Assembly: GCA_025451035.1 (NCBI GenBank)
Contig: JANWLE010000018.1
Location: 1 to 54,747 of the forward strand
Source: Solirubrobacteraceae bacterium
GTDB taxonomy: Bacteria > Actinomycetota > Thermoleophilia > Solirubrobacterales > Solirubrobacteraceae
Direction: 5' to 3'
DNA: 54,747 nt
The notes under the pieces are model-generated. The model did not search any database, was not told where the DNA came from, and worked only from the letters and a program-made list of their open reading frames with translations. Positions within the stretch are counted from its first letter, which is position 1; every line of letters begins with the position of its first letter. A program made the position numbers and the translations under genes. Positions 1-41,712 of this stretch are shown here, piece after piece.

Positions 1-2425
1 CGTCGCGCACCAGCTCGACGCTGGTGCCACCCGCCGCGCACGCGATGACCGGCCCGAAGCTCTCGTCGTGCACGACTCCTATCAGCAGCTCCACACCCGC
101 TTGCGTCATGGGCTGCACGACGAAACCCTCGAGCCGGTGGCCGCTCGCGCTAACCGCCGCCTCGATCTCCCTGGCCGCCGCGCGTACCGACTCGGCACCG
201 CTGAGGGAAAGGCGCACGCCACCCGCCTCGGTCTTGTGCACCAGCCCGCGTGCGAGCGCCTTCAACGCGACCGGCCCCCCGATCTCCCGCGCTGCCGCCA
301 CGGCGCGCGTGGCGTTCGCCACCACGCGCGTCTGGATGATCGGCAGCCCGTAGCAGCCCATCAGCTCAGACACCTCGTCTGGCGCCAGCCACCTGCCGCC
401 GCCCTGTACAGCCGCGGCGAGGATCTCCCCGGCGCGCCGCGCGCGCAAGCCGGTCAGCTGTGCAACCGAGCCAGCCGGCCGTGCCCGCCAGCGCCCGTAG
501 CGCGCGGCGTGCGCGAGCGCCCGTGCCGCGTCCTCGGGGAAGCTGAACGCCGGAATGTGGCCGGTGGGGCTCTCGAGCTCGCGCGGCATTCTGGCGCCGC
601 TCATGAACACCGCCGCGACCGGGATGCCGCCGGCTGTCAGCGACGCCTCGCGGATCTCCCGCGCGACATCGGCTGCTCGTGTAGCCAGCGGGCGGACGAA
701 GATCGTGATGATCGCGTCGCAAACATCCGCCCGCGCGAGGATCTCGATCGCGCGGCGGTAGTCCGCGGCGGAAGCGGTCGCGATCATGTCGACCGGGTTG
801 CCGAGCGACGCCTCCGCGGACAAGAACGCCCCCAGCGGCCTGCGTACCCGCGCCGGTAGCTCCACGACCTGCAGGCCCCCAGCCTGGCACGCGTCGGCGC
901 ACATGATGCCGGGGCCGCCGGCGTTGGTGACTATCGCGACGCGGTCGCCGCGCGGCACAGGCTGCGCCGCTAGCAGCGCCGCGACGTCGAACATCTCCTG
1001 CATGGTGTCGGTGCGGATCACCCCGGCCTGCTCGAACAGCGCGTCGACGGTCACATCCGAGGCGGTCATCAGGGCGCCGGTGTGCGACGAGGTGGCGCGC
1101 GCCCCGGCCGGCGAGCGTCCGCTCTTGACCGCGACGATCGGCTTGCTCGCGCAGACGCGGCGGGCGATGCGGGCGAACCGGCGCGGGTTGCCGAACGACT
1201 CGAGGTAGAGCAGAAGGACGTCCGTGTCGGGGTCGTGCTCCCAGTACTCGAGCAGGTCGTTGCCCGAGATGTCGGCCTTGTTGCCGACAGACACGAACGA
1301 GGACAGGCCAAGCCCGAGCCGGGCGGCCGCCTCGATGATCGCGATGCCCAGGCCGCCGCTCTGCGAGAGGAAGCTGACTCGGCCCGCTACCGGCGCGGAC
1401 TCGGAGAACGTGGCGTTCAGCCTCACCAGCGGGGCGGTGTTAAAGACGCCCAGGCAGTTCGGGCCGATCAGGCGCATTCCGCTCCGGCGGCAGACCGCTA
1501 TCAGCCGTGCTTGGCGGCGCGCCCCAGCGCCGCCGACCTCCGCGAAGCCAGCGGAGATGACAAGCAGCGCACGCACGCCAGCGCCGCCGCACGCGCGCGC
1601 GACGTTCACGACGTCCGCTGCGGGGACGACGATGACCGCCAGGTCCACGCGCTGAGGCACTTCGCCGATCGAGGCGTACGCTCGCCGTCCCTGCACGGTG
1701 CGGGCGCGCTTGTTGACCGCGTACACCTCGCCGGTGAAGCCGTCGCGGATGAGGTTGTGCAGGAGCTCGCCGCCGACGGTGTGGCGCCGCCTGGAGGCGC
1801 CGATCACAGCCACCGAGCGCGGCTTGAGGAAGCGGCTGACGGCGGCGACGGCCGCCGTGCCCTCGCGCTCCTCGAAGCGCTCCAGCACTTCGGGTGAAAG
1901 CGTGCTCGGCAGCTCGATCTCGATCACGTCCCCGCGGAAGCGCTGCTTGACGGTGAAGCCGCTGTCGCGGAACACGTCGATCATGCGGTGGTTGTGGGGC
2001 AGCACCTCGGCTGTCATGAGAGTGATGCCGTGCCTCTCGGCGGCGGCAGCCAGGTGCGCCAGCATGATCGTGGCGATCCCGTGGCCCTGCCAGTCGTCTG
2101 ACACCATGAACGCGACTTCCGCGCGCTGCGGGCCGGTGCGGATGTAGGCGGCGTGCGCGACGATCGACTGCTCGCTGCCGGTGGTTGCCACGAGGGCGTA
2201 GCGGTCGGCGTAGTCGACGTCGACCGACCAGTTCGCCGCCCACTCCAGGTCCACGCCGCCGAAGAAGCGAAAGCCGATCGACTGTGGCGAGAGGCCTTTC
2301 AAGAACTCCCTGATCGCCGAGCGGTCCGCGCTGGTGACGGGGCGCACGTGCAGCGTGGAGCCGTCACGCAGTACGACGTCAACCGACTCGACCTCGCGGG
2401 GAGGCTGGATCGCTGGGGCGCTCAC
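1..2425 (-). CDS. GNAT / ADP-forming acyl-CoA synthetase fusion (partial, C-terminus off window)
   Basis: The frame is open from a GTG at 2425 to the window edge, giving about 808 residues. An N-terminal GNAT acetyltransferase domain (about residues 10-165, with the acetyl-CoA loop QGHGIA) is followed by a CoA-binding domain (RSVAVIGASRR), a succinyl-CoA-ligase-like domain and the start of an ATP-grasp domain. The family either makes acetate plus ATP from acetyl-CoA or acetylates lysines on CoA-metabolism enzymes. His448 lies in SSHTGAL, where ADP-forming acetyl-CoA synthetases carry their phosphorylated His, so catalytic synthetase activity is possible; some Pat-type acetylases have lost this residue. 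The GTG overlaps the TGA of the upstream kinase by 4 nt, so translation is probably coupled. Family is certain; which of the two activities dominates is open. Confidence 0.9.
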   Translation of the reverse strand, partial: MSAPAIQPPREVESVDVVLRDGSTLHVRPVTSADRSAIREFLKGLSPQSIGFRFFGGVDLEWAANWSVDVDYADRYALVATTGSEQSIVAHAAYIRTGPQRAEVAFMVSDDWQGHGIATIMLAHLAAAAERHGITLMTAEVLPHNHRMIDVFRDSGFTVKQRFRGDVIEIELPSTLSPEVLERFEEREGTAAVAAVSRFLKPRSVAVIGASRRRHTVGGELLHNLIRDGFTGEVYAVNKRARTVQGRRAYASIGEVPQRVDLAVIVVPAADVVNVARACGGAGVRALLVISAGFAEVGGAGARRQARLIAVCRRSGMRLIGPNCLGVFNTAPLVRLNATFSESAPVAGRVSFLSQSGGLGIAIIEAAARLGLGLSSFVSVGNKADISGNDLLEYWEHDPDTDVLLLYLESFGNPRRFARIARRVCASKPIVAVKSGRSPAGARATSSHTGALMTASDVTVDALFEQAGVIRTDTMQEMFDVAALLAAQPVPRGDRVAIVTNAGGPGIMCADACQAGGLQVVELPARVRRPLGAFLSAEASLGNPVDMIATASAADYRRAIEILARADVCDAIITIFVRPLATRAADVAREIREASLTAGGIPVAAVFMSGARMPRELESPTGHIPAFSFPEDAARALAHAARYGRWRARPAGSVAQLTGLRARRAGEILAAAVQGGGRWLAPDEVSELMGCYGLPIIQTRVVANATRAVAAAREIGGPVALKALARGLVHKTEAGGVRLSLSGAESVRAAAREIEAAVSASGHRLEGFVVQPMTQAGVELLIGVVHDESFGPVIACAAGGTSVELVRD

Positions 2426-4119
2426 GGCCGGCTGGCCTCCGGCGCGGACAGTGAGCGCTGGCGAGCGGCTGTCCGCGGCTCGTGGGGATGGCGGGCGACG
2501 GTACGCCGGTCCAACGCCAGCGCGACCTCGTCCAGCTGCGCGTCAAGCGCCTTGCGCATGTCGAGGTGAAGGACGGTGTCTGCGGGCAGCTCCTCGGGCG
2601 GCTGGAACGAGCGGTACTGCTCGGCCACGATCTCTGGCGTGGCGTCGGAGACGCGTGCCGGATCGGACAGGCGCCTTGTGGCGCGCTCGCAGGCGGTCTT
2701 GAGCGGGAGCTCGCAGTGCACGAACAGCAGATTCACGTTCGCGCGCGCGATGCGCCCCAGCAGCAACGCCCGGTCAAACCGGGTGCGGCAGGTGGCGTCC
2801 ACGATGACGGCATCGTGGTCGCGCAGCACCGTGCGGGCCCGGCTGCCGAGCAGCTCGTAGGTGAGGTGGGTGAAGCTCTCGCGGTAATGCTCGGCGCGGG
2901 CACGCTCGTCGGGGCGAAGGCCGGCCGCGGCCTTGCGCATCACATCGGAGGACACCACCGTCATCTCCGCTTGCCGTGAGAGCGCCGCCGCGAGCGTCGA
3001 CTTGCCGCTGGCCGCGGGCCCGCACAGCACGACCGCAAGCGGCTTACGGGCGCGCCAGCAGAGCCTCTGCGCCAGCTGCCACAGATCCTGTGCACAGGCG
3101 AGCTGGCGCTCGCTTGTGCCGTAGCGGTCCTCGCCGGGGGCGAGCAACGCTACCTTGGCGCGCACGAGCGCCCAGTACGCGGCGTAGAAAGCGCGCAGCC
3201 ACGCGCCGCCGGGACTGAGTCCCGCACGCCGGTATGCGCTGACGAGGCTCTCCGCCGCCGCGCGCGCGCCGCGCGCCTCGAGGTCCATCGCCAGGAACGC
3301 CAGGTCCCACGCGACGTCGATACGCCTCAGCTGGGGGTCGAACTCGATCCGGTCGACGACGCGTACCTGAGGTGAGACCAGCACGTGCTCGCAGCGCAGG
3401 TCGCCGTGGCCGTCGCGCACGAGCCCCCGCAGAGCGCGGCGCTCGAGCTCGGGCGCGTGCGCCGCGACGAATGCTTCACCGAAGTAGAGCGCGCTCTGAA
3501 GGCGCCATCCGGTGGGATGCGCGCTGCGCTGGAGTTCGGCGATGTTCGCCCGCCACGCGGACAGCACCGGCTCATGCCCGCCGCCTGTCGCCGGCGGCGA
3601 GCGGCGGTGAAAGTCGGCCAGGAAGCGCGCCGTCGCCTCCACATCGGCGCGCTTCAGCGCGCGACGATCGATCAGACCGGCGAGCGTGTCCCGCTCGTCG
3701 AAGCGGCGCATTTCGACGAGGTACTCCACGGCCTCGGGCGTCTCCTCGCGCGCTAGGCGAAAGCCTCCCGGCCTCTGCACGAGCGCGCGCACGCCGAGGT
3801 AGATGTCCGGCGCGAGTGGCCGGTTGACCTTCACCTCCTCCCGGCAAGCGGCGTGGCGACGCGCGAGCGTGCTGTAGTCGAGGAAGCCCAGCTCGAGCGG
3901 CTTCTTGACCTTGTAGGCGCGCCCACCGGCGAGAAACACCCATGAGCTGTGCGTTTCGCGCAGCTGCACCGCCGGCTTACCGGGATACATCGACGGCGAG
4001 GCGAGCGCCTGCAACACCCCCGCCTGGGGGTAGGCGGAACGCAGGCGCTCGCCTCGCCGTCGCCTCTCGCTCGAGCGGGCGCCCTGCATACCGGTAGCTG
4101 GAGTCGGCGAAGGTGACAC
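2422..4119 (-). CDS. Two-domain kinase: aminoglycoside-phosphotransferase-like plus P-loop kinase
   Basis: The 565-residue protein has an N-terminal phosphotransferase-like half (about residues 45-340; motifs ETHSSWVFL, AYKVKKP, GHGDLRCEHV near residue 236) and a C-terminal P-loop kinase half with Walker A GPAASGKST near residue 368. This domain pair matches COG2187 plus COG0645 and resembles M. tuberculosis Rv2004c, a DosR-regulon protein of unknown substrate. Its stop overlaps the start of the GNAT/synthetase gene (GTGA). The first ~40 residues are Arg/Ser-rich and look unlike the family, so the true start may be an in-frame GTG about 35 codons in; no convincing ribosome site decides this. 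Substrate unknown. Confidence 0.88.
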   Translation of the reverse strand: MSPSPTPATGMQGARSSERRRRGERLRSAYPQAGVLQALASPSMYPGKPAVQLRETHSSWVFLAGGRAYKVKKPLELGFLDYSTLARRHAACREEVKVNRPLAPDIYLGVRALVQRPGGFRLAREETPEAVEYLVEMRRFDERDTLAGLIDRRALKRADVEATARFLADFHRRSPPATGGGHEPVLSAWRANIAELQRSAHPTGWRLQSALYFGEAFVAAHAPELERRALRGLVRDGHGDLRCEHVLVSPQVRVVDRIEFDPQLRRIDVAWDLAFLAMDLEARGARAAAESLVSAYRRAGLSPGGAWLRAFYAAYWALVRAKVALLAPGEDRYGTSERQLACAQDLWQLAQRLCWRARKPLAVVLCGPAASGKSTLAAALSRQAEMTVVSSDVMRKAAAGLRPDERARAEHYRESFTHLTYELLGSRARTVLRDHDAVIVDATCRTRFDRALLLGRIARANVNLLFVHCELPLKTACERATRRLSDPARVSDATPEIVAEQYRSFQPPEELPADTVLHLDMRKALDAQLDEVALALDRRTVARHPHEPRTAARQRSLSAPEASRP

Positions 4120-4242: not shown

Positions 4243-5235
4243 TCAGCCAAGCTCGAGCACTGCCGCGCCGTTCAGCGCGCCCGCGCGGATATCTTCCAGC
4301 GCGCGCAAGGCTTGCTCGAGCGCATACGTCCTGACCGTGGTCCTCACCGGCACGCGCGGCGCGAGCGCCAGAAACTCACTCGCGTCAGCGCGCGTGAGGT
4401 TCGCGACCGAGCGCACCGAGCGCTCCCCCCAGAGAATCTCATACGGGAAGCTCGGGATGTCCGACATGTGGATGCCGGCGCAGACGACCACGCCGCCCTT
4501 GGCGAGCGAGCGCAGCGCGAGCGTGAGCAGCTCCCCGGCCGGGGCAAAAATGATCGCCGCATCGAGCTGTTCCGGTGGGTCCTGCAGCGAGCTGCCGGCC
4601 CACTCGGCGCCCAGCTCCCGCGCGAACCGCTGGCCGGCGTCATCCCCCGGGCGAGTGAACGCGAACACCCGCCTGCCCTGGTAGCGCGCTACCTGCGCGA
4701 TGATGTGAGCCGACGCGCCGAACCCGTAGAGCCCGATCCGTTCAGACTCGCCGGCCATGCGCAGCGCGCGGTAACCGATCAGGCCCGCGCACAGCAACGG
4801 TGCGACCTGCAGGTCCGGATAGTCCTCCGGCAGCGCGAAGCAGTAGCGCTCATCCGCGAGCGTCAACTGCGCAAAGCCGCCGTCGATGTCCATGCCGGTG
4901 AAGCGGGCGCGGTCACACAGGTTCTCCCGGCCGCTCAGGCAGTAGCGGCATCGCCCGCAGGTCCAGCCGAGCCACGGGATGCCGATCCGCGCCCCCGCCG
5001 GGTAAAGCTCCGTCTCACCGCCGCCTGGGCCGTGCTCCAGCACCGTGCCGACGATCTGATGTCCTGGCACGATCGGCGGCGAGGGAATCTGTAGCTCCCC
5101 GTCGAGCAGGTGCACATCGGTGCGGCATACCCCGCACGCGTGCACCTGCACCAGCACCTGGCCGGGACCTGGTTTGGGGCGCTCGCGCTCAACGAGCTCG
5201 AGCGATCCAGGCTTGTCGATCTGGACGGCGCGCAC
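4243..5235 (-). CDS. Zinc-dependent alcohol dehydrogenase (AdhA-like)
   Basis: Medium-chain dehydrogenase of 330 residues from a GTG at 5235; the frame is open to 5307, but the first 24 codons do not look like protein and the family starts at VRAVQIDKPGS. Catalytic Zn ligands are visible in GVCRTDVHLLDG and the GH of VPGHQIVG. The structural Zn site is CGRCRYCLSGRENLC. The nucleotide-binding stretch is IGLYGFGASAHI. The enzyme probably interconverts an alcohol and aldehyde with NAD(P)H; in this context acetaldehyde to ethanol to recycle NADH is a reasonable guess. It is divergent from PEP synthase, an arrangement reminiscent of stress clusters in other actinobacteria. Confidence 0.9.
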   Translation of the reverse strand: MRAVQIDKPGSLELVERERPKPGPGQVLVQVHACGVCRTDVHLLDGELQIPSPPIVPGHQIVGTVLEHGPGGGETELYPAGARIGIPWLGWTCGRCRYCLSGRENLCDRARFTGMDIDGGFAQLTLADERYCFALPEDYPDLQVAPLLCAGLIGYRALRMAGESERIGLYGFGASAHIIAQVARYQGRRVFAFTRPGDDAGQRFARELGAEWAGSSLQDPPEQLDAAIIFAPAGELLTLALRSLAKGGVVVCAGIHMSDIPSFPYEILWGERSVRSVANLTRADASEFLALAPRVPVRTTVRTYALEQALRALEDIRAGALNGAAVLELG

Positions 5236-5382
5236 CCCAAAAGGATCGCACCGCCGGACGGTCCGTGAAAGACCGCAGCCGTCCTCGGCATCGCACGGAT
5301 GAAGCAAAAGCGTGCGCGGTGAGAGAGTGCTCTAGACAGCCCGCAGGCTGCCCGCGGAGCCCCGGCAAAAAGTCAGCAGACG
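5236..5382. promoter_or_regulatory. Divergent promoter region, alcohol dehydrogenase / PEP synthase
   Basis: Both genes start outward from this stretch. It contains a short inverted repeat, CGGTC and GACCG separated by 7 bp (about 5258-5274), and a small hairpin AGCC-CGCA-GGCT just before ppsA. No clean -35/-10 was identified. The repeat is short and may be chance. Confidence 0.35.
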
Positions 5383-7689
5383 ATGAGCACAGCAACGACA
5401 ACCACGTTCATTCGCTCTTTCGATGAGCTCACATCAGCGGACGTGCCGTTCGCGGGAGGCAAGGGCGCGAACCTCGGCGAGCTGACGCGCGCCGGCCTGC
5501 CGGTGCCCGACGGGTTTGTCATCGGCGCGAGCGCGTATGCGGCGTTCTGTGACCAGACCGGTCTGCGCGAGCGTCTCGAGCGGATCCTCGCCGGCGTGGA
5601 CGTCGAAGACGCGAAAGCGCTCGAGGAGGCCTCCACCTGCGCCCGGCGCGAGGTGCTCGGGGCGCCAGTGCCGCCGAGCCTACGAGAGGCGATCGCATCC
5701 GCCTACCTGGAGCTCGCGGGCGAGGACCCGCAGGCACCGGTCGCGGTGCGCTCCTCGGCGACCGCCGAGGACACCGCGTCGGCGTCGTTTGCGGGCATGA
5801 ACGAAACGTTTCTGAACACGTGCGGAGTCGACGCGGTGGTGGGAGCCGTGCAGCGCTGCTGGGCTTCGCTGTTCGGCGCCCGCACCATCTACTACCGCGC
5901 TCAACGTGGCTTCGGTCAAGCCGACATGGACATCGCCGTGGTCGTGCAACGCCAGCTCCGTTCCAGCAGAGCGGGCGTGATGTTCACGATCGACCCTTCC
6001 AGCGGCGAGCGCGAGACGCTCGTGATCGAGGGGTCCTTCGGCCTGGGCGAGGCCGTCGTCTCCGGCAGCGTCTCACCCGACCGCTACGTGGTGCGCAAGA
6101 GCGACCTCGCGATCACGACGCGTTCGGTGCGCCCAAAGGAGCTGGTGATCGAACCGGCGCCGACGGGCGGGACCGTGACACGCCCGCTTAGCCCCCAGGA
6201 GAGCATGCGCCCGGTGCTCAGCGACGCTGAGGTAATCACGCTCGCCGAGCTCGGCCTGGCGATCGAGAAGCACTACGGCGAACCGCAGGACACCGAGTGG
6301 TCCTTTGACGAGCAGGACCGAGCGTGGATGCTCCAGAGCCGCCCGATCACGACGGTCGACGCCGCCGGTCACGCACAGGGCGAGGTGCTCGTGCGCGGCC
6401 TCGGCGCCGCCCCCGGCAGCGCCAGCGGCAGTGTGCGACTCCTGAGCGATGCGCACGATACCCGGGGCTTTCGCCGCGGGGATGTCTTGGTGGCGCACAT
6501 GACGACACCGGACTGGGTGCCGTTGATGCGCCAGGCGGCGGCGATCGTCACCGACTCGGGCGGAATGACCTGTCACGCGGCGATCGTTTCGCGCGAGCTC
6601 GGTATCCCCTGCGTCGTCGGCACGGGCGAGGCGACACGCGCCCTGCGCGACGGCGAGCTCGTCACGGTCGACGCCACACGCGGAGTGGTGCTCGAGGGCG
6701 CCCCCGAGAGCTCGGGCGCAAGCCAGCCGCAAGGCGCCGCCCCTTCAGCTCGCGCCGCCGCCCCGGTCACCGCGACGCGCCTGCTGGTGAACCTCTCAGA
6801 GCCCTCGCAGGTGAGCCGCACCGCCGCGCTCGAAGTCGACGGGGTGGGCCTGCTGAGAGCCGAGATGATGGTCATCGAGGCGCTCGACGGGGCGCATCCC
6901 AAGCAGCTGATCGACGATGGCGGCGGCGAGGAGTTCGTGCGCCGCATGGCGGACGCGCTGGAGCTGTTCGCCTCCGGGTTTCACCCGCGGCCGGTCACCT
7001 ACCGGACGATCGATTTCCGCACGAACGAGTTCCGGGGGTTGCGCGGCGGCGAGCGCTTCGAGCCGCAGGAGGCAAACCCGATGATCGGCTACCGCGGCGC
7101 GTTGCGCTACACGCGCGAGCCGGACTTCTTCGCTCTCGAGATGCGCGCGCTGGCACGGGTGTGGGACGCTGGCCACGAGAACCTGCACGTGATGCTGCCG
7201 TTCGTCCGCACCACTGCCGAGCTCGAGCGCTGTCGCGCGATGATCGCCGAGACAGGCCTGCTGCAGCGCCGCGGCTTCGAGCTGTGGATCATGGCGGAGG
7301 TCCCCTCGGTTCTGTTCAACCTTGCGCGCTACACCGAGCTCGGGATCGCCGGCATCTCGATCGGCTCTAACGACCTGACGCAGCTGATCCTCGGCGCCGA
7401 CCGCGACTCGGAGCTCCTGGCGGACACCTTCGACGAGCGCGACGAGGCGGTCGTCGGCTATCTCGGGGCGCTGATCGCCCGCGCACGGGAGCTTGGGCTG
7501 CGAACCTCGATCTGCGGGCAGGCGCCCTCGGTGCACCCACAGTACACCGACCTGCTCGTCTCGCTGGGGATCGAAAACATCTCGGTCAGCGTCGACGCCG
7601 TCGAGCGGACCCGCCGCCTGATCGCCTCAGCCGAGCAGCGGCTGCTGCTCGCGGCTGCCCGCGGCGAGCGCAATGCGGAAAACCCGTGA
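5383..7689 (+). CDS. ppsA: Phosphoenolpyruvate synthase
   Basis: The 768-residue protein is close to the 792 residues of E. coli PpsA. The N-terminal ATP-binding domain (GGKGANLGEL, residues ~25-330) precedes the swivelling phosphohistidine domain, where His398 sits in GGMTCHAAIVSRELGIPC. The C-terminal TIM barrel carries the catalytic Cys711 in SICGQAPS. It converts pyruvate plus ATP to PEP plus AMP and phosphate. A Ser/Ala/Pro-rich linker near residues 440-460 separates the swivel from the barrel. Next to PFK, phosphoketolase and acetate kinase it would let cells keep a PEP pool when glycolytic flux changes. Pyruvate phosphate dikinase is an alternative, but the length and SICGQAPS motif favour PEP synthase. 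Confidence 0.95.
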   Translation: MSTATTTTFIRSFDELTSADVPFAGGKGANLGELTRAGLPVPDGFVIGASAYAAFCDQTGLRERLERILAGVDVEDAKALEEASTCARREVLGAPVPPSLREAIASAYLELAGEDPQAPVAVRSSATAEDTASASFAGMNETFLNTCGVDAVVGAVQRCWASLFGARTIYYRAQRGFGQADMDIAVVVQRQLRSSRAGVMFTIDPSSGERETLVIEGSFGLGEAVVSGSVSPDRYVVRKSDLAITTRSVRPKELVIEPAPTGGTVTRPLSPQESMRPVLSDAEVITLAELGLAIEKHYGEPQDTEWSFDEQDRAWMLQSRPITTVDAAGHAQGEVLVRGLGAAPGSASGSVRLLSDAHDTRGFRRGDVLVAHMTTPDWVPLMRQAAAIVTDSGGMTCHAAIVSRELGIPCVVGTGEATRALRDGELVTVDATRGVVLEGAPESSGASQPQGAAPSARAAAPVTATRLLVNLSEPSQVSRTAALEVDGVGLLRAEMMVIEALDGAHPKQLIDDGGGEEFVRRMADALELFASGFHPRPVTYRTIDFRTNEFRGLRGGERFEPQEANPMIGYRGALRYTREPDFFALEMRALARVWDAGHENLHVMLPFVRTTAELERCRAMIAETGLLQRRGFELWIMAEVPSVLFNLARYTELGIAGISIGSNDLTQLILGADRDSELLADTFDERDEAVVGYLGALIARARELGLRTSICGQAPSVHPQYTDLLVSLGIENISVSVDAVERTRRLIASAEQRLLLAAARGERNAENP

Positions 7690-8158: not shown

Positions 8159-8593
8159 ATGATGAGCACGCGCACTCTCTCGGTCGGCGATGTGATGCAC
8201 CACGGGGTGATCAGCACACCGCCCCAGACACCCCTGATCGAAGTCGCCGCGCAGATGGCCGAGCACCGCGTCCACAGCGTCGTCGTCGACGGGCTGGCGC
8301 GCGGGCGCGATGAGCAGGAGACGCTGATCTGGGGGCTCATCACCGACCTGGACCTGATGAAGGCGCTCGCCGGCGAGCGCCTTCACGTGAGCGCCGGCGA
8401 GCTCGCCGCGAGTGAGATCATCACCGTCGAGACGACCGATACGATCGACGACGTCGCCCGCCTGATGGCCGAGCACGAGTGCACTCACCTTGTGGTGATC
8501 TCTCCCCGGTCCGGTGAGCCGCTCGGCGTGATCTCGAGCCTCGACATCGCCGAGGGGCTCATGCGCGCACAGGAATCACTTCCCGTGAGTTGA
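8159..8593 (+). CDS. Two-CBS-domain protein (Hrp1-like)
   Basis: The 144-residue protein consists of a tandem CBS pair (first repeat about residues 8-70, second about 80-138). The second repeat has the typical end THLVVISPRSGEPLGVISSLDIAEG. Such stand-alone pairs bind adenine nucleotides and act as energy sensors; Hrp1 (Rv2626c) of M. tuberculosis is a hypoxia-induced example. It follows the coiled-coil gene closely. Start is ATGATG at 8159/8162 after AAAGGGG. The ligand is not readable from sequence. Confidence 0.88.
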   Translation: MMSTRTLSVGDVMHHGVISTPPQTPLIEVAAQMAEHRVHSVVVDGLARGRDEQETLIWGLITDLDLMKALAGERLHVSAGELAASEIITVETTDTIDDVARLMAEHECTHLVVISPRSGEPLGVISSLDIAEGLMRAQESLPVS

Positions 8594-12109: not shown

Positions 12110-12143
12110 GCGAGTTCTACGGGGCTCGCCCGCGGGCGATATC
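12110..12143 (-). promoter_or_regulatory. Shared promoter block, copy 1 (protease gene)
   Basis: On the minus strand this reads GATATC, then GCCCGCGGGCG, then a 4-nt spacer, then CCGTAG, upstream of the protease -10. The same arrangement occurs before the P-type ATPase gene (14632-14658) with 22 of 27 positions identical. CGCCCGCGGGCG is itself palindromic. It is a candidate activator or repressor site for co-regulation. A second CTACGG lies at 12152-12157. Confidence 0.5.
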
Positions 12144-12168
12144 AGCGGAAACTACGGGCGCGTGTCGC

Positions 12169-17415: not shown

Positions 17416-17472
17416 GGGGCGGCGTAGCGGCTGCGGATGCCACCTCGCCGCACGGTGGCGGAAGATCGCCTC

Positions 17473-25325: not shown

Positions 25326-25358
25326 GCTCAAACACCTCCTTGTGGCGATGCTCGGGGG

Positions 25359-27711: not shown

Positions 27712-28036
27712 TGGCGCGTGGGCTGGCTGGTCTCGTCGGCGCTGGGCAGACTGAACGCGAGCACAGGCCAGCGGGCGCCAACGCGAGGCGCCAGGTCACG
27801 GTGGGTGACTCATCTTCGGCGATTTTTGCTCCTCCGTGGTTGGGTGCGCCTGCGTGCGGTCCGCGCCCCCTCTACGGTAGCGCTCGGCGGCGCCGGGCTT
27901 TCCGTAGTTTCGCCCGTTGACGGGTGGGCTTGTGCGGTCCTGCGCGCACGTGCGGTGGTCGTAGACTTGCAGGCATGAGATCCACCAACACGGCGTGGGC
28001 TTGTGTGGCGCTCGTGAAGGGCTTTGGGGGTCGCTG
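27712..28036. promoter_or_regulatory. Divergent promoter region, pfkB-like / phosphofructokinase
   Basis: This 325-bp gap carries CTACGG at 27872-27877 and CCGTAG at 27902-27907, which are inverted relative to each other and 24 bp apart, followed by TTTC. CCGTAGTTT matches the P-type ATPase promoter exactly. The stretch between is GC-rich and palindromic (GGCGGCGCC). No gene is seen inside. Confidence 0.45.
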
Positions 28037-31367: not shown

Positions 31368-33773
31368 CTACGTGCTTTCTGCCTGCGGCCAGCGCCAGTC
31401 GGTGATATCGGGGCTGTCGCTGCCGTGCTCGCGGGTGTAGGCGCGGTGGCGCAGGCGTTCGTCGGCCATCAGCTGGCGCACGTGCGCCGCGCGCTCGGCG
31501 AGCCCCGGCACCCTGTCGAGCACGTCGATCACGAGGTGAAAGCGGTCCAGGTCGTTGAGCATCACCATGTCGAACGGCGTCGTGGTGGTGCCCTCCTCCT
31601 TGTAGCCGCGCACGTGGATGTTGTGGTGGTTGGTTCGCCTGTAGGTGAGGCGGTGGATCAGCCAGGGGTAGCCGTGGTAAGCGAAGACGACCGGTTGCGA
31701 GGTGGTGAAGAGCGCGTCGAACTCCGAGTCGGGCAGGCCGTGCGGGTGCTCGCTGTCGGGCTGAAGGCGCATCAGGTCGACCACGTTGACGAGGCGCACC
31801 CGCAGGTCGGGCAGGTGCTCGCGCAGCAGCGCGCTCGCGGCCACGCACTCGAGCGTGGGCACGTCACCGGCGCAGGCGAGCACCACGTTGGGCTCCTGCT
31901 CGCCGTCGTTGGAGAACTCATCCCAGATGCCGATGCCGCGCGCGCAGTGCGCGATCGCCCGGTCCATCGGCAGGTAGTCCAGCGACGGCTGCTTGCCGGC
32001 GACGATCACGTTGACGTAATGGCGGCTGCGCAGGCAGTGGTCGGCGACCGACAGCAGGCAGTTGGCGTCGGGTGGAAAGTAGACCCGCACGATCTGGGCC
32101 TTCTTGTTGACGACATGGTCGATGAAGCCGGGGTCCTGGTGAGAGAAACCGTTGTGGTCTTGACGCCACACGTGCGAGGAGAGCAGATAGTTCAGCGAGG
32201 CGATCGGCGCCCGCCACGGGATGTCGCGGGTCACCTTCAGCCACTTGGCGTGCTGGTTGAACATCGAGTCGACGATGTGGATGAAGGCCTCGTAGCAGTT
32301 GAACAGGCCATGCCTGCCGGTCAGCAAATAGCCCTCGAGCCAGCCCTGGCAGAGGTGCTCGCTCAAGACCTCCATCACGCGCCCGTCGGGCGCGAGATGC
32401 TCGTCGTCCTCGCGCCGCTCGGCCTCCCAAGTGCGGTCGGTCGCCTCGAACAGCGCGCCCAGGCGGTTGGAGGCGGTCTCGTCGGGGCCCATCACGCGGA
32501 AACGGTCGGCGTTCATCTTCATGACGTCGCGCAGAAAGGCGCCCAGCACGCGCGTCGGTTCGCTCACGCTCGCGGTCGCTCGCGGCACGTCCACCGCGTA
32601 GTCGCGGAAGTCCGGCAGCTCCAGCGCACGCACCAGTAGCCCTCCGTTTGTGTGTGGGTTGGCGCCCATGCGCCGTATACCGGAGGGCGCCAGTGCCGCC
32701 AGCTCCGCGCGCAGGGCACCGTGCTCGTCGAAGAGCTCCTGTGGGCGATAGGAGCGCAGCCACTCCTCCAGGGCGCGCAGGGCCCCGGGTTTGGAGGCGA
32801 GGTCGGACAACGGCACCTGGTGAGAGCGGAAGGATCCCTCCGCGGGCAGCCCGTCGACCTCCTTCGGTCCCGTCCAGCCCTTCGGGGTGCGCAGCACGAT
32901 CATTGGCCAGCGGGGGCGGGAAGGCTCGCCTGTGCTGCGCGCCCGCTCCTGTATGAGTGCGATCTCGTCGGCGACCTCCTCTAGCGTGGCTGCCATCAGG
33001 GCGTGCATCGTGGCGGGGTCCTCGCCCTCGACGAAGCGGGGCGCGTAGCCGTAGCCTTCGAGCAGCGCGCGCAGCTCCTCGCCGGGGATCCGCGCCAGCA
33101 CCGTCGGGCTGGCGATCTTGTAGCCGTTGAGGTGCAGCACCGGCAGCACGGCGCCGTCGCGCGCCGGGTTGAGGAACTTGTTCGAGTGCCAGCTGGTGGC
33201 CAACGGCCCGGTCTCGGCCTCGCCGTCCCCGACGACGCAGCAGACCAGCAGGTCGGGGTTATCGAAGGCGGCGCCGTAGGCGTGGGCGAGCGAGTAGCCG
33301 AGCTCACCGCCCTCGTGGATCGAACCGGGGGTCTCAGGCGCGACGTGGCTCGGGATCCCGCCGGGGAAGGAGAACTGTCGAAATAGTCGCCGTAGGCCCT
33401 CCTCGTCACGCCCTATGTGGGGATAGACCTCACTGTAGGTGCCCTGTAGATACACGTTGGCGACCAGCCCCGGCCCGCCGTGCCCCGGCCCGGTGACGTA
33501 GATAACGTTCAGGTCGCGCTGGCGGATCAGCCTGTTCACGTGTACATAGATGAAGTTCAGGCCGGGCGTGGTGCCCCAGTGACCGAGCAGCCGCGGCTTG
33601 GTGTGCTCCAAACGCAGCGGCTCGCGCAGAAGCGGGTTCTCAAGCAAATAGATCTGCCCCACCGAGAGGTAGTTGGCCGCGCGCCAGTAGGCGTGGAGCT
33701 CTTCCAGTTCGGTAGCTGGGAGGTGGCTGGCAGGGCTACTCATAGGGGTTAAGGGGCGCCGCGATCGGCTCAC
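31368..33773 (-). CDS. xfp: Xylulose-5-phosphate/fructose-6-phosphate phosphoketolase
   Basis: 801 residues, the family's normal size. Thiamine-diphosphate enzyme motifs include [60 protein letters not shown] and, near residue 540, [18 protein letters not shown]. It splits ketose phosphates with phosphate to acetyl phosphate plus an aldose phosphate. Acetate kinase follows 9 bp downstream. The start is either GTG 33773 or ATG 33743; neither has a clear ribosome site. Confidence 0.96.
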
Positions 33774-33925: not shown

Positions 33926-34822
33926 ATGTTCAAGCGAGTGCTCGTAGGGGTGGACGGCAGGTCCAACGGCCGTGACGCTGTGGCGCTCGCCACGCGCCTG
34001 ATCGAGTCTGGCGGGACGTTGACGCTCGCGCACGTGCACAGCGGCGAGGTCGGCCCGCTCCACGCGCGGACCCCTTCGTTGGCTGCGCAGGAGCGCGAGG
34101 CCTCACAGCTGCTGCTAGAGCAAGAGCGCGCTGCGAGTGACGTCGAGGCGAGGCTCGTCAGCGTCGTGGCGGCTAGCCCCGGGCGCGGACTTCACCAGCA
34201 GGCGGAGGCCGAAGGCGCTGACTTGCTGGTGGTCGGCTCGTGCTGCCACGGCGTCTTCGGGCGAGCGATGCTCGGCAACGACACCCGGGGCGCGCTCAAC
34301 GGCGCGCCGTGCGCCGTCGCGATCGCGCCCCGCGGCTACGCCCAGAGCCCTCACACGATCGGCAGGATCGGTGTGGCCTACAACGGGTCCGAAGAGAGCA
34401 AGACGGCGCTGGCCGCCTCGCGCGAGCTTGCGGCGCAGACGAGCGCGACGGTTCACGCGCTTGAAGTCGTCTCGGTGTCGTCCTACGCGTTCGCCGGGCT
34501 GATGGCGGCAAGCATTGGCGACAGCCTGGAGATGATGCTCGAGGAGGCGAACACGAGGATGAAGGAGCTTCCCGAGGTCAAGGGCCGCGCCGTGTGCGGA
34601 CTGGCGGGCGAGGAACTCGCCGCCTTCGGCGAGGAAGTGGACATTCTCGTCATCGGGTCGCGCAGCTATGGGCCGGTACGCCGCCTGGTGCTCGGCAGCA
34701 CCTCAGACTACCTCGAGCGTCACGCCCGCTGCGCCCTGCTGGTGCTGCCCCGGGCTGCCCAGCACGCAGAGATCAGTGCCACCGAGCTCTCAGGCACCGG
34801 CGAGTGGCTGCAGCACCAGTGA
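33926..34822 (+). CDS. Tandem universal stress protein
   Basis: 298 residues made of two USP domains (about 1-142 and 148-290). Both have the ATP-binding pattern: LVVGSCCHGVFGRAMLGN in the first and LVIGSRSYGPVRRLVLGSTS in the second. Tandem USPs such as Rv2623 bind ATP and slow growth in hypoxia. The start ATG at 33926 follows AGCGGAG; an overlapping ATG at 33921 is out of frame. It is divergent from phosphoketolase. Confidence 0.94.
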   Translation: MFKRVLVGVDGRSNGRDAVALATRLIESGGTLTLAHVHSGEVGPLHARTPSLAAQEREASQLLLEQERAASDVEARLVSVVAASPGRGLHQQAEAEGADLLVVGSCCHGVFGRAMLGNDTRGALNGAPCAVAIAPRGYAQSPHTIGRIGVAYNGSEESKTALAASRELAAQTSATVHALEVVSVSSYAFAGLMAASIGDSLEMMLEEANTRMKELPEVKGRAVCGLAGEELAAFGEEVDILVIGSRSYGPVRRLVLGSTSDYLERHARCALLVLPRAAQHAEISATELSGTGEWLQHQ

Positions 34823-35243
34823 GCGCTCGCTGTTGAGTTCCGTCTCGCCAGGCGGGCACCGTCGGGGTAGCGGGTTCTCGCGGCTCGCGGGAAAGAGCTT
34901 GAGCAGGAAGGCGAGGCTCGGCTGCTGCTAGGGGCCGGTCGCCTTATCGGGTGAGCGACTCGAGAAGCTCGCGCCAGGGTCGAGCCTATGAATCGCGGCC
35001 GCGGCGAGAGGCTCCAGTCACGGAACGCTCGATGCTTGGCAGGTAGCCCCATGTGTACCCTTCGAGCATCCATCGTTTCGGGCTTCGGGCCGGCGCACGA
35101 GCTTGCCGCCAACAGCATCCTGTCTGGGGTACGCGGGGATATCGCGAGGGCTCGCGATGAGCGGGCGTGGCGCTCGGCGAACGCGTGACGTCATCTGGCA
35201 TGCTTTGGCTACTTCGTCGCTGAGGCTGAAGAAAGAGGTTGCG
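34823..35243. other. 421-bp gap with an inverted repeat, no gene recognised
   Basis: Short frames on both strands here have no protein-like features. A perfect inverted repeat ATCGCGA-GGGC-TCGCGAT lies at 35141-35158, about 85 bp before the cupin start. AAAGAGG at 35232-35238 is the cupin ribosome site. No tRNA or known RNA fold is visible. Confidence 0.4.
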
Positions 35244-35618
35244 ATGCAAAGCTGGGAGTTGAACGCGATTAACCTCAAGCCACGACTGCCTGAGATTCTC
35301 TCCACCTGCGCTGCGGCTCGTGTAATCGTGCTCGACCTGGCTAGTGGCGAGAGCCTCTCAGACCATGAGGTTCACGAGCACGCGTGGCTTGTAGTGGTGC
35401 GGGGTGAGGTCGAGGTGAGCACTGCCTCCGGAGGGCTGGTTCGTGGTGGAGGCGGGCTGTTGGTCGAGTTCGCTCCGGGTGAGCGGCACGAGGTGGTTGC
35501 TTCTGAAGATACGCGGCTTCTACTGATGCTCGCGCCATGGCCGGGAAAGGGTCATCCTGGAGCGATGACTATCCGCGAGAAGCTTTACGCCCGTCGTCAT
35601 GCCGCTAAGCAAGCGTAG
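35244..35618 (+). CDS. Small cupin-domain protein
   Basis: 124 residues from ATG 35244 with AGAGG seven bases upstream. One cupin barrel: LASGESLSDHEVHEHAWLVVVRGEVEVS has the first motif with two His, and FAPGERHEVVASEDTRLLLML the second with one His, so a metal site is likely. The C-terminus has a basic helix REKLYARRHAAKQA. Role unknown; small cupins often act as metal-dependent sensors or enzymes. The 3' end overlaps the convergent regulator gene by 14 bp. Confidence 0.8.
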   Translation: MQSWELNAINLKPRLPEILSTCAAARVIVLDLASGESLSDHEVHEHAWLVVVRGEVEVSTASGGLVRGGGGLLVEFAPGERHEVVASEDTRLLLMLAPWPGKGHPGAMTIREKLYARRHAAKQA

Positions 35619-37281: not shown

Positions 37282-37454
37282 CGTCTCGCCAGCGCCAAGC
37301 CGCCGCGGGCGTATGCCTGAAAGAGGGTCCCGGGGCGCTCGCCACTCGCCGCTCGCAAGCAGCATGGGCCGCTACTGGTCAACGTGTGTCCTGTATCGTG
37401 CTCTATGGCCTCGGCTCGGCTCAACGCTCAAATGAGAATAGTCGGTACTTTCCA
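37282..37454. promoter_or_regulatory. Divergent promoter region, nitronate monooxygenase / NarL regulator
   Basis: A 173-bp gap. TATCGT at about 37393 and TAGTCG near 37439 could be -10 parts for the regulator, but no convincing pair was found. The open frame that runs through it from 37074 is a by-product of the opposite gene. Confidence 0.3.
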
Positions 37455-38159
37455 GTGACGACAGACCAAAGCACTAACCCCGCCGACGACGGTGCCCAGA
37501 CCGAGGACGTCGGTAACTCGATTCGGATCATCCTCGCGGACGACCACGCCGTCGTGCGCAGTGGCCTGAGGATGCTGCTCGACAGCGAGGGGGACTTCGA
37601 GGTCGTCGCTGAGGCGAGCGACGTCGACAGCGCCAGACGCTATGTGCGCGGCCACCACCCGAAGGTGCTGATCCTCGACCTGAACATGCCTGGAGGCTCG
37701 AGCCTGGAGGCGATCCCCGCGATCCGCAAGGAATCACCCGACACCCAGATCGTGGTGCTCACGATGCAGCAGGAGCCGGCGTTCGCGCGTGAGGCGCTCA
37801 GCGCGGGAGCCCTTGGCTACGTGCTCAAGGAGGCCGCCGACGACGAGCTTGTTGAAGCGGTGCGGCGCGCCGCCGCCGGCGAGAGCTACCTGAATCCGCG
37901 ACTGGGCGCACGGATCGCGGCGGAGCCGCCGCCGGGACCACCCGATGACCTCTCAGACCGGGAGGTCGACGTGCTGAGGCTGATCGCGCTCGGGCACACC
38001 AACGCGGAGATCGCAGAGCAGCTGTACCTGTCCGTGCGAACAGTCGAGACACACCGTTCGCACATCCAGCAGAAGCTGAGGCTGTCCACCCGAGCGGAGC
38101 TCGTCGGGTACGCGCTCGAGCGTGGCCTGATCAAGGCCGGCGGCGACCACAGCGGCTGA
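37455..38159 (+). CDS. NarL/LuxR-family response regulator
   Basis: 234 residues from GTG 37455. The receiver domain (about 22-140) has the acidic pair ADDH, Asp75 in LILDLNMPGG as phosphorylation site, then Thr and Lys in VVLTMQQ and GYVLKEA. The C-terminal helix-turn-helix is LSDREVDVLRLIALGHTNAEIAEQLYLSVRTVETHRSHIQQKL. No kinase adjoins it; the DosS-like kinase at 12886-14577 is the best candidate partner in the window. The recognition helix differs from that of DevR, so its box may differ too. Confidence 0.93.
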   Translation: MTTDQSTNPADDGAQTEDVGNSIRIILADDHAVVRSGLRMLLDSEGDFEVVAEASDVDSARRYVRGHHPKVLILDLNMPGGSSLEAIPAIRKESPDTQIVVLTMQQEPAFAREALSAGALGYVLKEAADDELVEAVRRAAAGESYLNPRLGARIAAEPPPGPPDDLSDREVDVLRLIALGHTNAEIAEQLYLSVRTVETHRSHIQQKLRLSTRAELVGYALERGLIKAGGDHSG

Positions 38160-38668: not shown

Positions 38669-38673
38669 GCGAG

Positions 38674-39612
38674 CTAGCGCAGGCGGCTGTAGTGCTCGCG
38701 CCAGATGAGACGGTGGACGGGTATCCAGCGCGGGATTGAGCGCACTCCCGGGATGAACGGGATGCACACGAACGCGATGCTCAGGAGCGTCATCACGAGC
38801 ACGACGAGGATGTCGGCGTTTTCGGAGTTCTTGAAGGGTTCGATCTGATACCAGAACGTGTATAGCCACAGCCACGACTGACCGGGGTAGGAGCCGGTCT
38901 CGTTCATCATTCCCCACTGGTCGCCGAGCAGATGCTCGGATTCAGCGCGTCCTTCGAGCAGTTTCCCGTCGGCCATGAACAAGAGCGGCTTGGTGTAGTC
39001 GGTCTGGAAGAACTGGTTGCTGCGCAGCAGGTTGCCTTCGAGGCCCCCGGTCTGGGCGAGGCCGAGCAGGGCGTTCATCATCGCCGGCACCGGCCCGTAC
39101 GCGCCGGCCGCCACCCTTAGCGTCCCGTTGGCGGCTACCGTGGCGTTTTCCAAGGCCTTTGCGTACGCTTCGCTCCAGGCCTTCTGCTGGCTGGCGGAGG
39201 CTCCCTTGTAAGTGGCGATTGCGCTCTGCAGCGCCGGATCGTTGGCGATAGTCGCCAGCGGTTCGAACACGTAGGCGCTCGGCGTGTCGATGGGGTGGCT
39301 GACGCCGAGCCATTCCTGTGGTTTGAGGAACGCCGCGTGCTGGCCTTCGGCGGCGTGGTTGTAGGGGGGGCCGTATCCGGCGATGCCGCTCGTCCCGTCG
39401 AGCTCGCTCACGGCGGTGCTCTCGAAGTCCGCGGGCGTCGCCGTCGACCACTGCGCGATCGTGCTCGGCTTCTCGTCAGGGGAGGAGAGAAGGACCGTCA
39501 GCACCACCGCAAGCAGCGTGATCACGCCGAGCGCTATGCACAGCTCCTTGACCAGGTCGTAGGCCGCGTAGGGGCCTTTCCAATCCCGTGTCTGCCCGGT
39601 GTAGCGGGTCAT
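38674..39612 (-). CDS. Cytochrome b C-terminal-type subunit
   Basis: 312 residues from ATG 39612, overlapping the previous cistron by ATGA; the longer open frame to 40428 is an artefact of the preceding gene. It has an N-terminal membrane segment (KELCIALGVITLLAVVLTVLL, about 18-45), a long ~200-residue soluble insert, and two hydrophobic helices near the end (ILVVLVMTLLSIAFVCIPFIPG). Sequence around the HPIDTPSAY and PEDEKPS-like start resembles subunit IV or the C-terminal half of QcrB. It would form the quinol side together with the b6-like subunit. Confidence 0.78.
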   Translation of the reverse strand: MTRYTGQTRDWKGPYAAYDLVKELCIALGVITLLAVVLTVLLSSPDEKPSTIAQWSTATPADFESTAVSELDGTSGIAGYGPPYNHAAEGQHAAFLKPQEWLGVSHPIDTPSAYVFEPLATIANDPALQSAIATYKGASASQQKAWSEAYAKALENATVAANGTLRVAAGAYGPVPAMMNALLGLAQTGGLEGNLLRSNQFFQTDYTKPLLFMADGKLLEGRAESEHLLGDQWGMMNETGSYPGQSWLWLYTFWYQIEPFKNSENADILVVLVMTLLSIAFVCIPFIPGVRSIPRWIPVHRLIWREHYSRLR

Positions 39613-40361
39613 GAGGGCTCTCCCTGGCGGCCGGGCTGCGCTCCACCCGATGGGGGGGCCTCCGACGGCGGTCCGGCCGGTGGCGGCGCACCGGATGCGG
39701 GGCCGGGGGGTGAAGCGCTCCCCGCGGGCGCCGCTGGCGCGCGTTCGGCGAGCTCGAACGGCGGCACCACCCCGTGGCGGCGCACGAGCAGCACGTGGCC
39801 CGCGACGAGCGCCACGACAGCGACAGGGAACAGCAGGACGTGCCAGCTGTACATCTGCCCGAAGTTGGTCACGTTGAAGAAAGCGCCCGCGCCGATCGAG
39901 TTCATCGCGTCCTTCGCCTGCGTGGAGATCCACTGCGCGTCGAAGTTCTGCTGTGAGACGTACCCGGTGAGCGCCGTCGGGATGGCAACGAGGAACGTGA
40001 CCGCTCCCGTCATCCACACGCGCGCGCGCCCACCGCGCCAGGCGGCCATCCAGTACTTGCCCCACAGGTGCACGACCATCGTGAAGAAGAACAGCTCCAC
40101 CGCCCACAGGTGGATCGAGTTGAAGAAGTGCCCGACCCCGGTGTCGTGCCACCAGGCGGGCCCCTTCAGGCCGAGGATCATCCCCGACCCCACGATCACG
40201 ATCAGCGCGGCGAGCGTAGCCACGCCGAACACGTAGATCCACGAGTCCACGTAGGTGGGTTGCCCGTCGGGCAGCAGCTTCTCTGGCGGCAGCGCGCCAA
40301 CCGCCGCTTCGCGGGTGCGGACGGTCCACGAGCGCTTGCCCGGTGTCGCGGCGACGCTCAT
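39609..40361 (-). CDS. Cytochrome b N-terminal (b6-like) subunit
   Basis: 250 residues with four membrane helices. Two His pairs for the haems are visible: H in FFNSIHLW and MVVHLWGKYW, and later YSWHVLLF and LVAGHVLLVRRHG. The sequence GPAWWHDTGVGHFFNSIHLW resembles the b6/QcrB family. The C-terminus is a Pro/Ala-rich tail. It overlaps both neighbours by ATGA, so three proteins are made from one transcript. It would bind quinol in the membrane. Confidence 0.88.
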   Translation of the reverse strand: MSVAATPGKRSWTVRTREAAVGALPPEKLLPDGQPTYVDSWIYVFGVATLAALIVIVGSGMILGLKGPAWWHDTGVGHFFNSIHLWAVELFFFTMVVHLWGKYWMAAWRGGRARVWMTGAVTFLVAIPTALTGYVSQQNFDAQWISTQAKDAMNSIGAGAFFNVTNFGQMYSWHVLLFPVAVVALVAGHVLLVRRHGVVPPFELAERAPAAPAGSASPPGPASGAPPPAGPPSEAPPSGGAQPGRQGEPS

Positions 40362-40549: not shown

Positions 40550-40677
40550 AAGCTCGCCTCCTGGTGTGTAGCCAAGCGTGGGGTGCCAGACTACCGTTCG
40601 GTCTGGACGGCCAGAACCCTATGTTCGGCTCTCGGCGGGCGCGTCCGTAGAAACCACCAATCCGTACCTGTATCGGC
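40550..40677. promoter_or_regulatory. Promoter region of the cytochrome b operon
   Basis: On the minus strand the gap reads TTTCTACGG (CCGTAG at 40645-40650 on the plus strand), then TAGTCT, a TANNNT -10-like box, about 40 bp before the GTG. Confidence 0.4.
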
Positions 40678-41712
40678 CTAAAGCGGCCAGTAGTGCGCGA
40701 TCTGCGCCGCCGCACGGGAGGTGAGCAGCCCCTCCGGCGCGGCCGAGCGGGCGGGCGCGGAGTCGCCTAGCGCGGTGAGTGTCTGTGTCACCGACTCGGC
40801 CAGCGCACGCGGTTCGTAGCCGCCCTCGAGGACCATTCCCAGCGGCGCGTTCAGCTCGCTTGCGAGATCGCGCAAGTGGCGAGTCATCTGGGCGAAGGAC
40901 TCTGCCAGCAGGCGGCAGCCCGCGAGGGGGTCATCGCGGTGTGCGTCAAAGCCGGCGGAGAGCAGCACCAGATCGGGGTCGAAGGCGCGTGCCGCGGGCA
41001 CGATGATGTGCTCGAGTAGCGACAGCCAGAGATCCTCCTCGGAGCCGGCGGGAACCGGAAGATTGATCGTGAAACCCTCGCCGGGACCCGAGCCGACGTC
41101 GCTGAGCGCGCCGGTGCCAGGATAGATCCCGGCCTGATGGATGCTCGCGTACAGGACGTCTGAGCGGTAGCGAAACGCCTCGGCTGTCCCGTTGCCGTGG
41201 TGGACATCCCAGTCGAAGATGAGCACGCGCTCGGCGTCTAGCTCAGAGATCGCTAGCTGCGCGGCGATCGCCGCGTTGTTGAACAAGCAGAACCCCATCG
41301 CGCGGTCCGGCTCGGCGTGGTGGCCCGACGGGCGCACACCACAAAACGCAACCCTCGCCTCGCCACCCATCAACGCCCGGACCATCGCGCACGCGCCACC
41401 AGCGGCGTGCAACGCCGCGCGGTAGGAGGGTTCTCCGAGGAACGTATCGGCGTCGATCGCACCTCCGCCTGCGAGCGAGATCTCCCTGATCTTCGCGATG
41501 TGGGCAGGCGTGTGGACGAGCTCGAGCTCCCGCTCGCTCGCGGCGGGGGCGCCTCGAAGCTCAAACCCGAGCCAATCCCGCGCGGCTAGCGTTCGCTCGA
41601 TCGCCAGCAGCCGCTCCGGGGTATCCGGATGAGCAGGCATCAACACGCGGGGGTCGTGCTCCAGGCACGACGGATCGCGAAAATAGAGGCCGACGGGGGG
41701 CTGCTCGGTCAC
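40678..41712 (-). CDS. Histone-deacetylase-family protein (acetoin/acetylpolyamine type)
   Basis: 344 residues with the class II HDAC core: RPSGHHAEPDRAMGFCLFNNAAIAA, VLIFDWDVHHGNGTAEAF (Asp and His zinc ligands), and LLSAGFDAHRDDPL (Asp ligand). It probably removes acetyl groups from small amines or protein lysines. A GNAT/acyl-CoA synthetase lies at the other end of the same island, so both sides of an acetylation cycle may be encoded. Confidence 0.93.
   Translation of the reverse strand: MTEQPPVGLYFRDPSCLEHDPRVLMPAHPDTPERLLAIERTLAARDWLGFELRGAPAASERELELVHTPAHIAKIREISLAGGGAIDADTFLGEPSYRAALHAAGGACAMVRALMGGEARVAFCGVRPSGHHAEPDRAMGFCLFNNAAIAAQLAISELDAERVLIFDWDVHHGNGTAEAFRYRSDVLYASIHQAGIYPGTGALSDVGSGPGEGFTINLPVPAGSEEDLWLSLLEHIIVPAARAFDPDLVLLSAGFDAHRDDPLAGCRLLAESFAQMTRHLRDLASELNAPLGMVLEGGYEPRALAESVTQTLTALGDSAPARSAAPEGLLTSRAAAQIAHYWPL

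Follow-up and report, generated by a model that had tools for sequence, protein, structure and literature searches.

A 54,747-bp stretch of DNA from a Solirubrobacteraceae bacterium (GCA_025451035.1), termed the window below, likely contains a hypoxia-response island of the DosS/DosT kind whose wiring is specific to Solirubrobacterales. The window is one entire contig (JANWLE010000018.1) of a 2.87-Mb genome with a completeness of 94%, assigned to Solirubrobacterales by the named relatives of its kinase, and the island surveyed spans positions 1-41712. A DosT-like oxygen switch over stress and fermentation genes is the simplest account of its content; these genes lie in one stretch and are probably governed by a shared control sequence unlike that of the tuberculosis dormancy system. 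The sequence-only reading of this DNA had proposed a self-contained hypoxia island joined to substrate-level phosphorylation. The joined island is supported by conserved co-localisation, by DosT-type haem-pocket residues and by a palindrome that connects the kinase and the regulator with stress and carbon genes in its relatives. The attribute ‘self-contained’ had to be given up, as matching boxes occur elsewhere in the genomes and genus mates carry different subsets of the genes.

A DosT-like kinase and its gene neighbourhood

The sensor kinase shows the domain plan of the DosS/DosT class, with two GAF domains, HisKA_3 and HATPase_c. The best matches of its GAF-A domain in the Protein Data Bank (PDB) are DosT (2vzw; E 3.5e-42) and DosS chains such as 2w3d (2.1e-38). 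His107 aligns with the proximal haem ligand of DosS, His149, Tyr129 with the distal tyrosine (171 in DosS, 169 in DosT), and Gly44 with DosS position 87, where DosS has Glu and DosT has Gly; the roles of these haem-pocket positions in DosS and DosT follow PMC4082495. Among distinct aligned kinase segments, the ligand His is conserved in 81 of 83 and the distal Tyr in 81 of 84, while the DosT-position Gly is found in 79 of 81, the other two being gaps, so that not one substitution occurs among the 79 aligned residues. GAF-A hence carries DosT-like haem-pocket residues that are near-invariant, and it is predicted to bind haem. Kinases of the DosS/DosT class bind haem and answer O2, NO and CO.

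Kinase matches were obtained in 42 of the 101 genomes searched. For comparison of the neighbourhoods, 17 regions of about 60 kb from 16 genomes were chosen by hand as a part of those eligible, mostly on long contigs, and 12 control regions were placed at round coordinates in eight of the same genomes. The mean number of window families per region was 3.4 in focal and 0.42 in control regions (p=2e-4), and 2.6 against 0.25 (p=0.0013) when the kinase, the regulator and generic families were excluded. A carbon gene was present in 10 of the 17 focal and in none of the 12 control regions (p=0.001); the ADP-forming acyl-CoA synthetase and the AAA_33 kinase each occurred in four focal regions and no control region. 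The commonest neighbour of the kinase is the NarL family (14/17 focal, 2/12 control). Clustering around the kinase is beyond chance.

Across families it is the gene content that is conserved, not the order. Within the genus, acetate kinase (AckA) and phosphoketolase (Xfp) on the minus strand followed by a universal stress protein (USP) and the NarL regulator on the plus strand recur in this order and orientation in five of 11 genus mates (G060, G195, G194, G205, G188; handles beginning with G denote genomes, C contigs and L loci), the other six having smaller subsets. The CPA2 antiporter stands before AckA also in G060, G195 and G194, TreT precedes the block in G060, G195 and G188, and the membrane protein after cytochrome b follows it in G060, G195 and G205. 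G205 holds AckA, Xfp, USP, regulator, phosphoenolpyruvate (PEP) synthase, phosphofructokinase (PFK), deacetylase, alcohol dehydrogenase, kinase and TreT within about 22 kb. Phosphoketolase was found in 15 and the regulator in 18 of 24 genus genomes, that of the window counted among them, at the cut-offs applied and with many of these assemblies incomplete. The conserved neighbourhood by which the sequence-only reading was to be checked is therefore present in relatives, as order in part of the genus and as content across families.

Genes of the island were called by Pfam and NCBIfam profile matches and are as follows.

2..2425, minus: ADP-forming acyl-CoA synthetase fused to an N-terminal GNAT domain, cut by the contig end (Pfam, NCBIfam)
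2422..4119, minus: AAA_33 P-loop kinase (profile match), presumably Rv2004c-like
4243..5307, minus: zinc alcohol dehydrogenase, TIGR02822 above cut-off (NCBIfam)
5383..7689, plus: PEP synthase, above cut-off (NCBIfam)
8159..8593, plus: two-CBS protein (Pfam)
10906..12084, minus: M50 protease with CBS domain (Pfam), which we take to be Rip3-like
12169..12597, minus: DUF2267 protein (Pfam)
12886..14577, plus: GAF-GAF-HisKA_3-HATPase sensor kinase (Pfam and structure alignment)
14671..17415, plus: type II P-type ATPase (Pfam, NCBIfam), presumably CtpF-like
17437..18702, plus: TreT-type trehalose synthase (Pfam, NCBIfam)
18779..21124, plus: glycogen debranching-type enzyme (Pfam)
21319..21747, plus: Hsp20 (Pfam)
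21863..22363, minus: aminoacyl-tRNA editing (YbaK-type) protein (Pfam)
22783..24264, minus: phosphoribosyltransferase-alpha/beta hydrolase fusion (Pfam)
24270..25331, minus: sigma-70 factor, RpoD/SigB type (Pfam, NCBIfam)
26758..27711, minus: PfkB-type sugar kinase (Pfam, NCBIfam)
27995..29071, plus: PFK, PF00365, with pyrophosphate (PPi)-type residues GGED and PKTVDND (Pfam, alignment)
29108..30283, plus: CPA2-type cation/proton antiporter (Pfam, NCBIfam)
30258..31358, minus: acetate kinase with short N-lobe, its N-terminal phosphate loop identified by eye (Pfam, NCBIfam)
31368..33773, minus: phosphoketolase (Pfam, NCBIfam)
33926..34822, plus: tandem USP (Pfam)
35103..35618: cupin reading frame
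37455..38159, plus: NarL-type response regulator, recognition helix SVRTVETHRSHI (Pfam, alignment)
38674..40361, minus: cytochrome b (39609-40361) and a downstream membrane protein without family (Pfam)
40678..41712, minus: histone deacetylase (HDAC)-domain protein (Pfam), presumably of AcuC type

All enzyme and domain classes named in the sequence-only reading were matched at their coordinates, and the island additionally contains cytochrome b, the aminoacyl-tRNA editing protein, the sigma-70 factor and the HDAC-domain protein. Some of its ortholog-level names hold only as domain classes: Hrp1 is absent among the four PDB matches of the CBS protein (E<=1e-6), and the tandem USP has no PDB match at E<=1e-10. 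The acyl-CoA synthetase is incomplete because the window is a whole contig and the gene runs off its end. From 41908 on there follow a kinase/OmpR pair, an HlyD/MacB exporter and a GGDEF protein, for which no tie to the island was seen; a similar kinase/OmpR pair sits near the gene set in some relatives (e.g. G194).

The PFK had been assigned to the PPi type. It carries Asp and Lys at the sites where ATP-dependent PFKs have Gly and Gly, a replacement of both glycines that we take to be the signature of PPi-type enzymes. The best solved relatives do not bear this out: among the 26 matches listed nearly all are ATP-dependent or unspecified, the best ones included, and one PPi-type enzyme ranks last. 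From its signature residues, PPi use by this PFK is likely.

Several further observations were made on the inventory. The RpoD/SigB-type sigma factor could add a second layer of control. A small membrane gene, read by eye at about 40358-40594, precedes cytochrome b, and the frame downstream of cytochrome b recurs in G060, G195, G205 and L075. The island is flanked by the GNAT-fused acyl-CoA synthetase and the HDAC-domain deacetylase, and acetylation of proteins may contribute to the response. In one control region (G051:C1, about 1500-1504 kb, L177) an Hsp20 gene (69%) adjoins a P-type ATPase gene (56%); parts of the stress set therefore also travel apart from the kinase.

The response regulator and a shared palindrome

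The regulator consists of a receiver and a LuxR-type helix-turn-helix domain. Identity to its counterparts is 79-93% in 16 of 17 matching genus mates and 71-73% in G096, and 59 of 80 kinase loci contain a homologue. The helix core RT[VI]E[ST]HR occurs in at least 64 of 70 regulators lying within 1.5 kb of a kinase across the order, some loci being counted twice and 68 of the 70 helices being displayed in the comparison. The sequence-only reading had implied a DosR-type regulator, an assignment that neither recognition helix nor operator supports. The helix reads VRTVETHRSHI, compared with EKTVKNYVSRL in DevR, so a DevR-type helix is lacking, and DevR ranks only fifth among the solved relatives of the regulator. 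The DevR recognition helix includes Asn183. It also includes Lys182, a DNA-binding residue according to PMC5999986. The DosR box is absent from the window at up to four mismatches to its consensus; the lone site with five mismatches lies inside the tRNA-editing reading frame and was rejected.

A paralogous pair on contig C91 of the same genome was considered as a source of partners and discarded, the kinase frame having no GAF-A and the regulator another helix. After the island's own kinase, the closest one in this genome is without GAF-A, which leaves the kinase and regulator of the island as the most probable partners.

A candidate operator emerged from 297 upstream sequences of window-family homologues (81 for the kinase, 75 for the regulator, shared divergent promoters counted twice), which were subjected to dyad enumeration and then described by a palindromic weight matrix. 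The motif obtained de novo was CCATCCGTAGTNACTACGGATGG, with the 19-bp palindromic consensus ATCCGTAGTNACTACGGAT upstream of cluster genes. In split-half tests it was recovered in four of six splits, with 20-24 of 142-160 held-out upstreams matched at 12 bits as compared to 0 of 279 control upstreams, and the same procedure applied to control upstreams enriched nothing in six runs. A scanning matrix built from 39 sites, the window and G060 being excluded, yielded, at 13 bits, 69 matches from 2.08 Mb of focal and three from 0.72 Mb of control DNA. Intergenic positions account for 38 of the 69; the 35 matches outside the training upstreams, 18 of them intergenic, still exceed the control density about fourfold. 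Strict sites numbered 19 in 232 genomes of the order, against two for the reversed pattern, and the same consensus with up to two mismatches gave a modest 21 against nine in 24 chosen genomes. No earlier report was found for the operator ATCCGTAGTNACTACGGAT, and none of the five titles listed for CTACGGAT with response regulators dealt with an operator of this kind.

The matches in the window are the following.

12139..12161: 10.8 bits, weak, upstream of the M50-CBS gene
21163..21185: 16.6 bits, centred 145 bp before the Hsp20 start
22485..22507: 9.3 bits, weak, upstream of the tRNA-editing gene
22685..22707: 21.6 bits, the strongest, about 330 bp upstream of the tRNA-editing gene
27898..27920: 11.8 bits, between the divergent PfkB and PFK genes
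35507..35529: 15.6 bits, inside the cupin frame 35103-35618
37439..37461: 9.9 bits, weak, at the start of the NarL regulator
40641..40663: 18.2 bits, upstream of the cytochrome b operon

Of these eight best matches seven are intergenic; the eighth is possibly due to chance because it falls within the cupin reading frame. With all listed frames treated as coding, cupin included, and the cytochrome b operon masked by eye, three intergenic matches reach 13 bits, while column permutations average 0.07 and none of 500 attains three. In G060 (11.9 bits) and G205 (13.7 bits) a box occupies the same position at the regulator start. A listing of the window's intergenic palindromes as such showed nothing that stood out.

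In several relatives the box precedes the regulator and kinase genes themselves, and it lies 52 bp upstream of the deacetylase gene in L034 and 110 and 155 bp upstream in L064. Sixteen box-near proteins of relatives, picked by hand and so not giving a rate, were scanned. The first set comprised CydA, a multicopper oxidase, three flavin oxidoreductases and a USP; the second comprised pyruvate:ferredoxin oxidoreductase (POR), arginine deiminase, WS/DGAT, two COX2 proteins, a flavin oxidoreductase, a fatty-acid-desaturase-type protein, UbiD, a cupin and a glyoxalase-family protein. The boxes before CydA, multicopper oxidase, POR and arginine deiminase lie outside the training upstreams; that of WS/DGAT is a divergent promoter shared with a PEP synthase gene used in training. 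At seven of 18 strict order-wide loci the neighbour is a USP, the regulator, COX2 or a flavin oxidoreductase. Flavin oxidoreductases of the Pyr_redox_2 type recur behind the box in other genera (L090:7885, L110:5315, L082:7035 and L241:237 by Pfam; G011:C11 and G023:C1 by eye), and none was present among the window proteins scanned. A near-perfect box is also found in the window's own genome (G000:C69:163571-163589, L203) between cupin and glyoxalase-family genes.

The palindrome is unlikely to be the site of some other regulator encoded nearby instead of the NarL protein beside phosphoketolase. The pairing of regulator and box is a prediction from sequence, and two of the nine strict-box genomes among the 101 have no kinase match at the cut-off. 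Against another regulator speak the standing of the NarL family as the kinase's commonest neighbour, the boxes before the regulator and kinase genes in relatives, and the occurrence of the kinase in seven of nine strict-box genomes as compared to 35 of 92 others (p=0.026, counts taken by hand).

Proposed mechanism and its weighing

According to the oxygen-switch model, departure of O2 from the haem of GAF-A would lead the kinase to phosphorylate the NarL-type regulator, which would bind the palindrome and switch on its own gene and those of the kinase, the chaperone, the USPs and the cytochrome b complex; in the lineage as a whole the targets would further comprise a high-affinity oxidase and genes of anaerobic carbon metabolism. 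Carbon from glycogen and trehalose would be fed in by the debranching enzyme, by TreT and by both phosphofructokinases, after which phosphoketolase would form acetyl phosphate, and acetate kinase together with the ADP-forming acyl-CoA synthetase would provide ATP without respiration, with acetate being formed. We infer this route from the known reactions of the families; phosphotransfer, binding of the regulator to the box, induction at low oxygen and the metabolic direction are likewise predicted.

A number of results weigh against this model. Kinase and regulator are 23 kb apart in the window, where the genes for the kinase, phosphoketolase and PEP synthase are without a clear box upstream. 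Without the intergenic restriction, the window's four matches at 13 bits are reached by 15 of 500 permutations and its five at 11 bits by 65 of 500. Two of the six split halves (3 and 5) failed to recover the motif, as did two of five folds (2 and 4) in a first cross-validation with a poor seed rule. Of the 69 focal matches, 31 fall inside reading frames, as judged by a crude caller, and 34 within training upstreams. A strict copy was found in none of 23 genus mates searched, and in the genome of the window itself the rigid consensus shows no enrichment (8 against 8 in controls), for which reason the weight matrix was used. Mixed neighbours with no obvious role in hypoxia stand at 11 of the 18 strict loci. 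Seven of the 17 focal regions lack a carbon gene, and five (G025, both of G066, G030 and G072) lack any counted family.

Distinctly unlikely, in our judgement, is a general stress or slow-growth island responding to starvation, desiccation or redox stress, with a haem sensor that answers NO, CO or redox state and not oxygen. Hsp20, USP, the sigma factor, TreT and the P-type ATPase are general stress genes, and strict boxes are also near UbiD and fatty-acid-desaturase/AlkB-type genes and, as named by eye, LysR- and MFS-type genes. The DosT-position Gly, by contrast, is never substituted among the aligned residues; PMC4082495 reports the proposal that it gives stable oxygen binding in DosT, which is disputed for DosS. 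The box-associated CydA, POR and arginine deiminase also indicate oxygen limitation. That there is no functional unit at all, chance drift or horizontal transfer having assembled unrelated cassettes, is highly improbable: order is unconserved across families, the set is missing from five regions and ABC/FtsX genes are interspersed in the island, yet the enrichment over controls, the oriented synteny within the genus and the shared palindrome contradict it.

Returning to the oxygen switch, a wider formulation would be an order-wide hypoxia regulon with a DosT-type haem sensor, a non-DosR-type regulator and the operator ATCCGTAGTNACTACGGAT, whose core in the genus is phosphoketolase-acetate kinase and not nitrate respiration or hydrogenase; on this our confidence is evenly divided. 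If it is true, dormancy of the abundant Solirubrobacterales of soil and permafrost would depend on the fermentation of glycogen and trehalose stores to acetate. For a profile of arctic tundra, PMC5823929 gives Solirubrobacterales a relative abundance of 30% within Actinobacteria, rising with permafrost depth.

Comparison with known systems

The DosR regulon gene list served as the basis for comparing families. With DosS/DosT-DosR of M. tuberculosis the island shares a GAF-A haem sensor with His, Tyr and, as in DosT, Gly, as well as USP, Hsp20, CBS, PfkB and phosphoribosyltransferase-hydrolase genes, to which its relatives add WS/DGAT. It differs in the regulator's helix, in having no DosR box in the window, and in the phosphoketolase and acetate kinase built into it.

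The sequence-only reading held that such genes are scattered in mycobacteria. This does not apply to M. smegmatis, in which msmeg_3926-3955 is a contiguous, hypoxia-induced DosR cluster beside DevR/DevS, as described in part of PMC2799521. Like the island it includes PEP synthase and a cation P-type ATPase; unlike the island it carries a Ni-Fe hydrogenase. Phosphoketolase, acetate kinase and trehalose are not named in the main text of that paper by word search.

The OsdKR region of S. coelicolor (SCO0167-SCO0219; PMC5069765, in part) resembles the island in its contiguous USP genes, alcohol dehydrogenase, pyruvate phosphate dikinase and a two-component pair with a palindromic operator. Its operator is different (AGGGCCGATCGGCCCT), and the region contains nitrate reductase. 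A word search of the main text of PMC5069765 found no naming of phosphoketolase, acetate kinase or Hsp20.

Searches of the available library yielded no paper in which DosR is linked to Solirubrobacter or Thermoleophilia, or a ‘dormancy regulon’ to Solirubrobacter. Nothing relevant was among the matches listed for the DosR regulon with phosphoketolase, and Solirubrobacter with phosphoketolase led to a tundra metagenome study only. Compared with these systems, the novelty lies in the lineage, the operator, a recognition helix unlike that of DosR and a core built on phosphoketolase. These features would show a haem-sensor dormancy switch re-wired to another operator and a fermentation core with many target families kept, and with sensor, regulator and operator named, the anoxic survival of Solirubrobacterales becomes directly testable.

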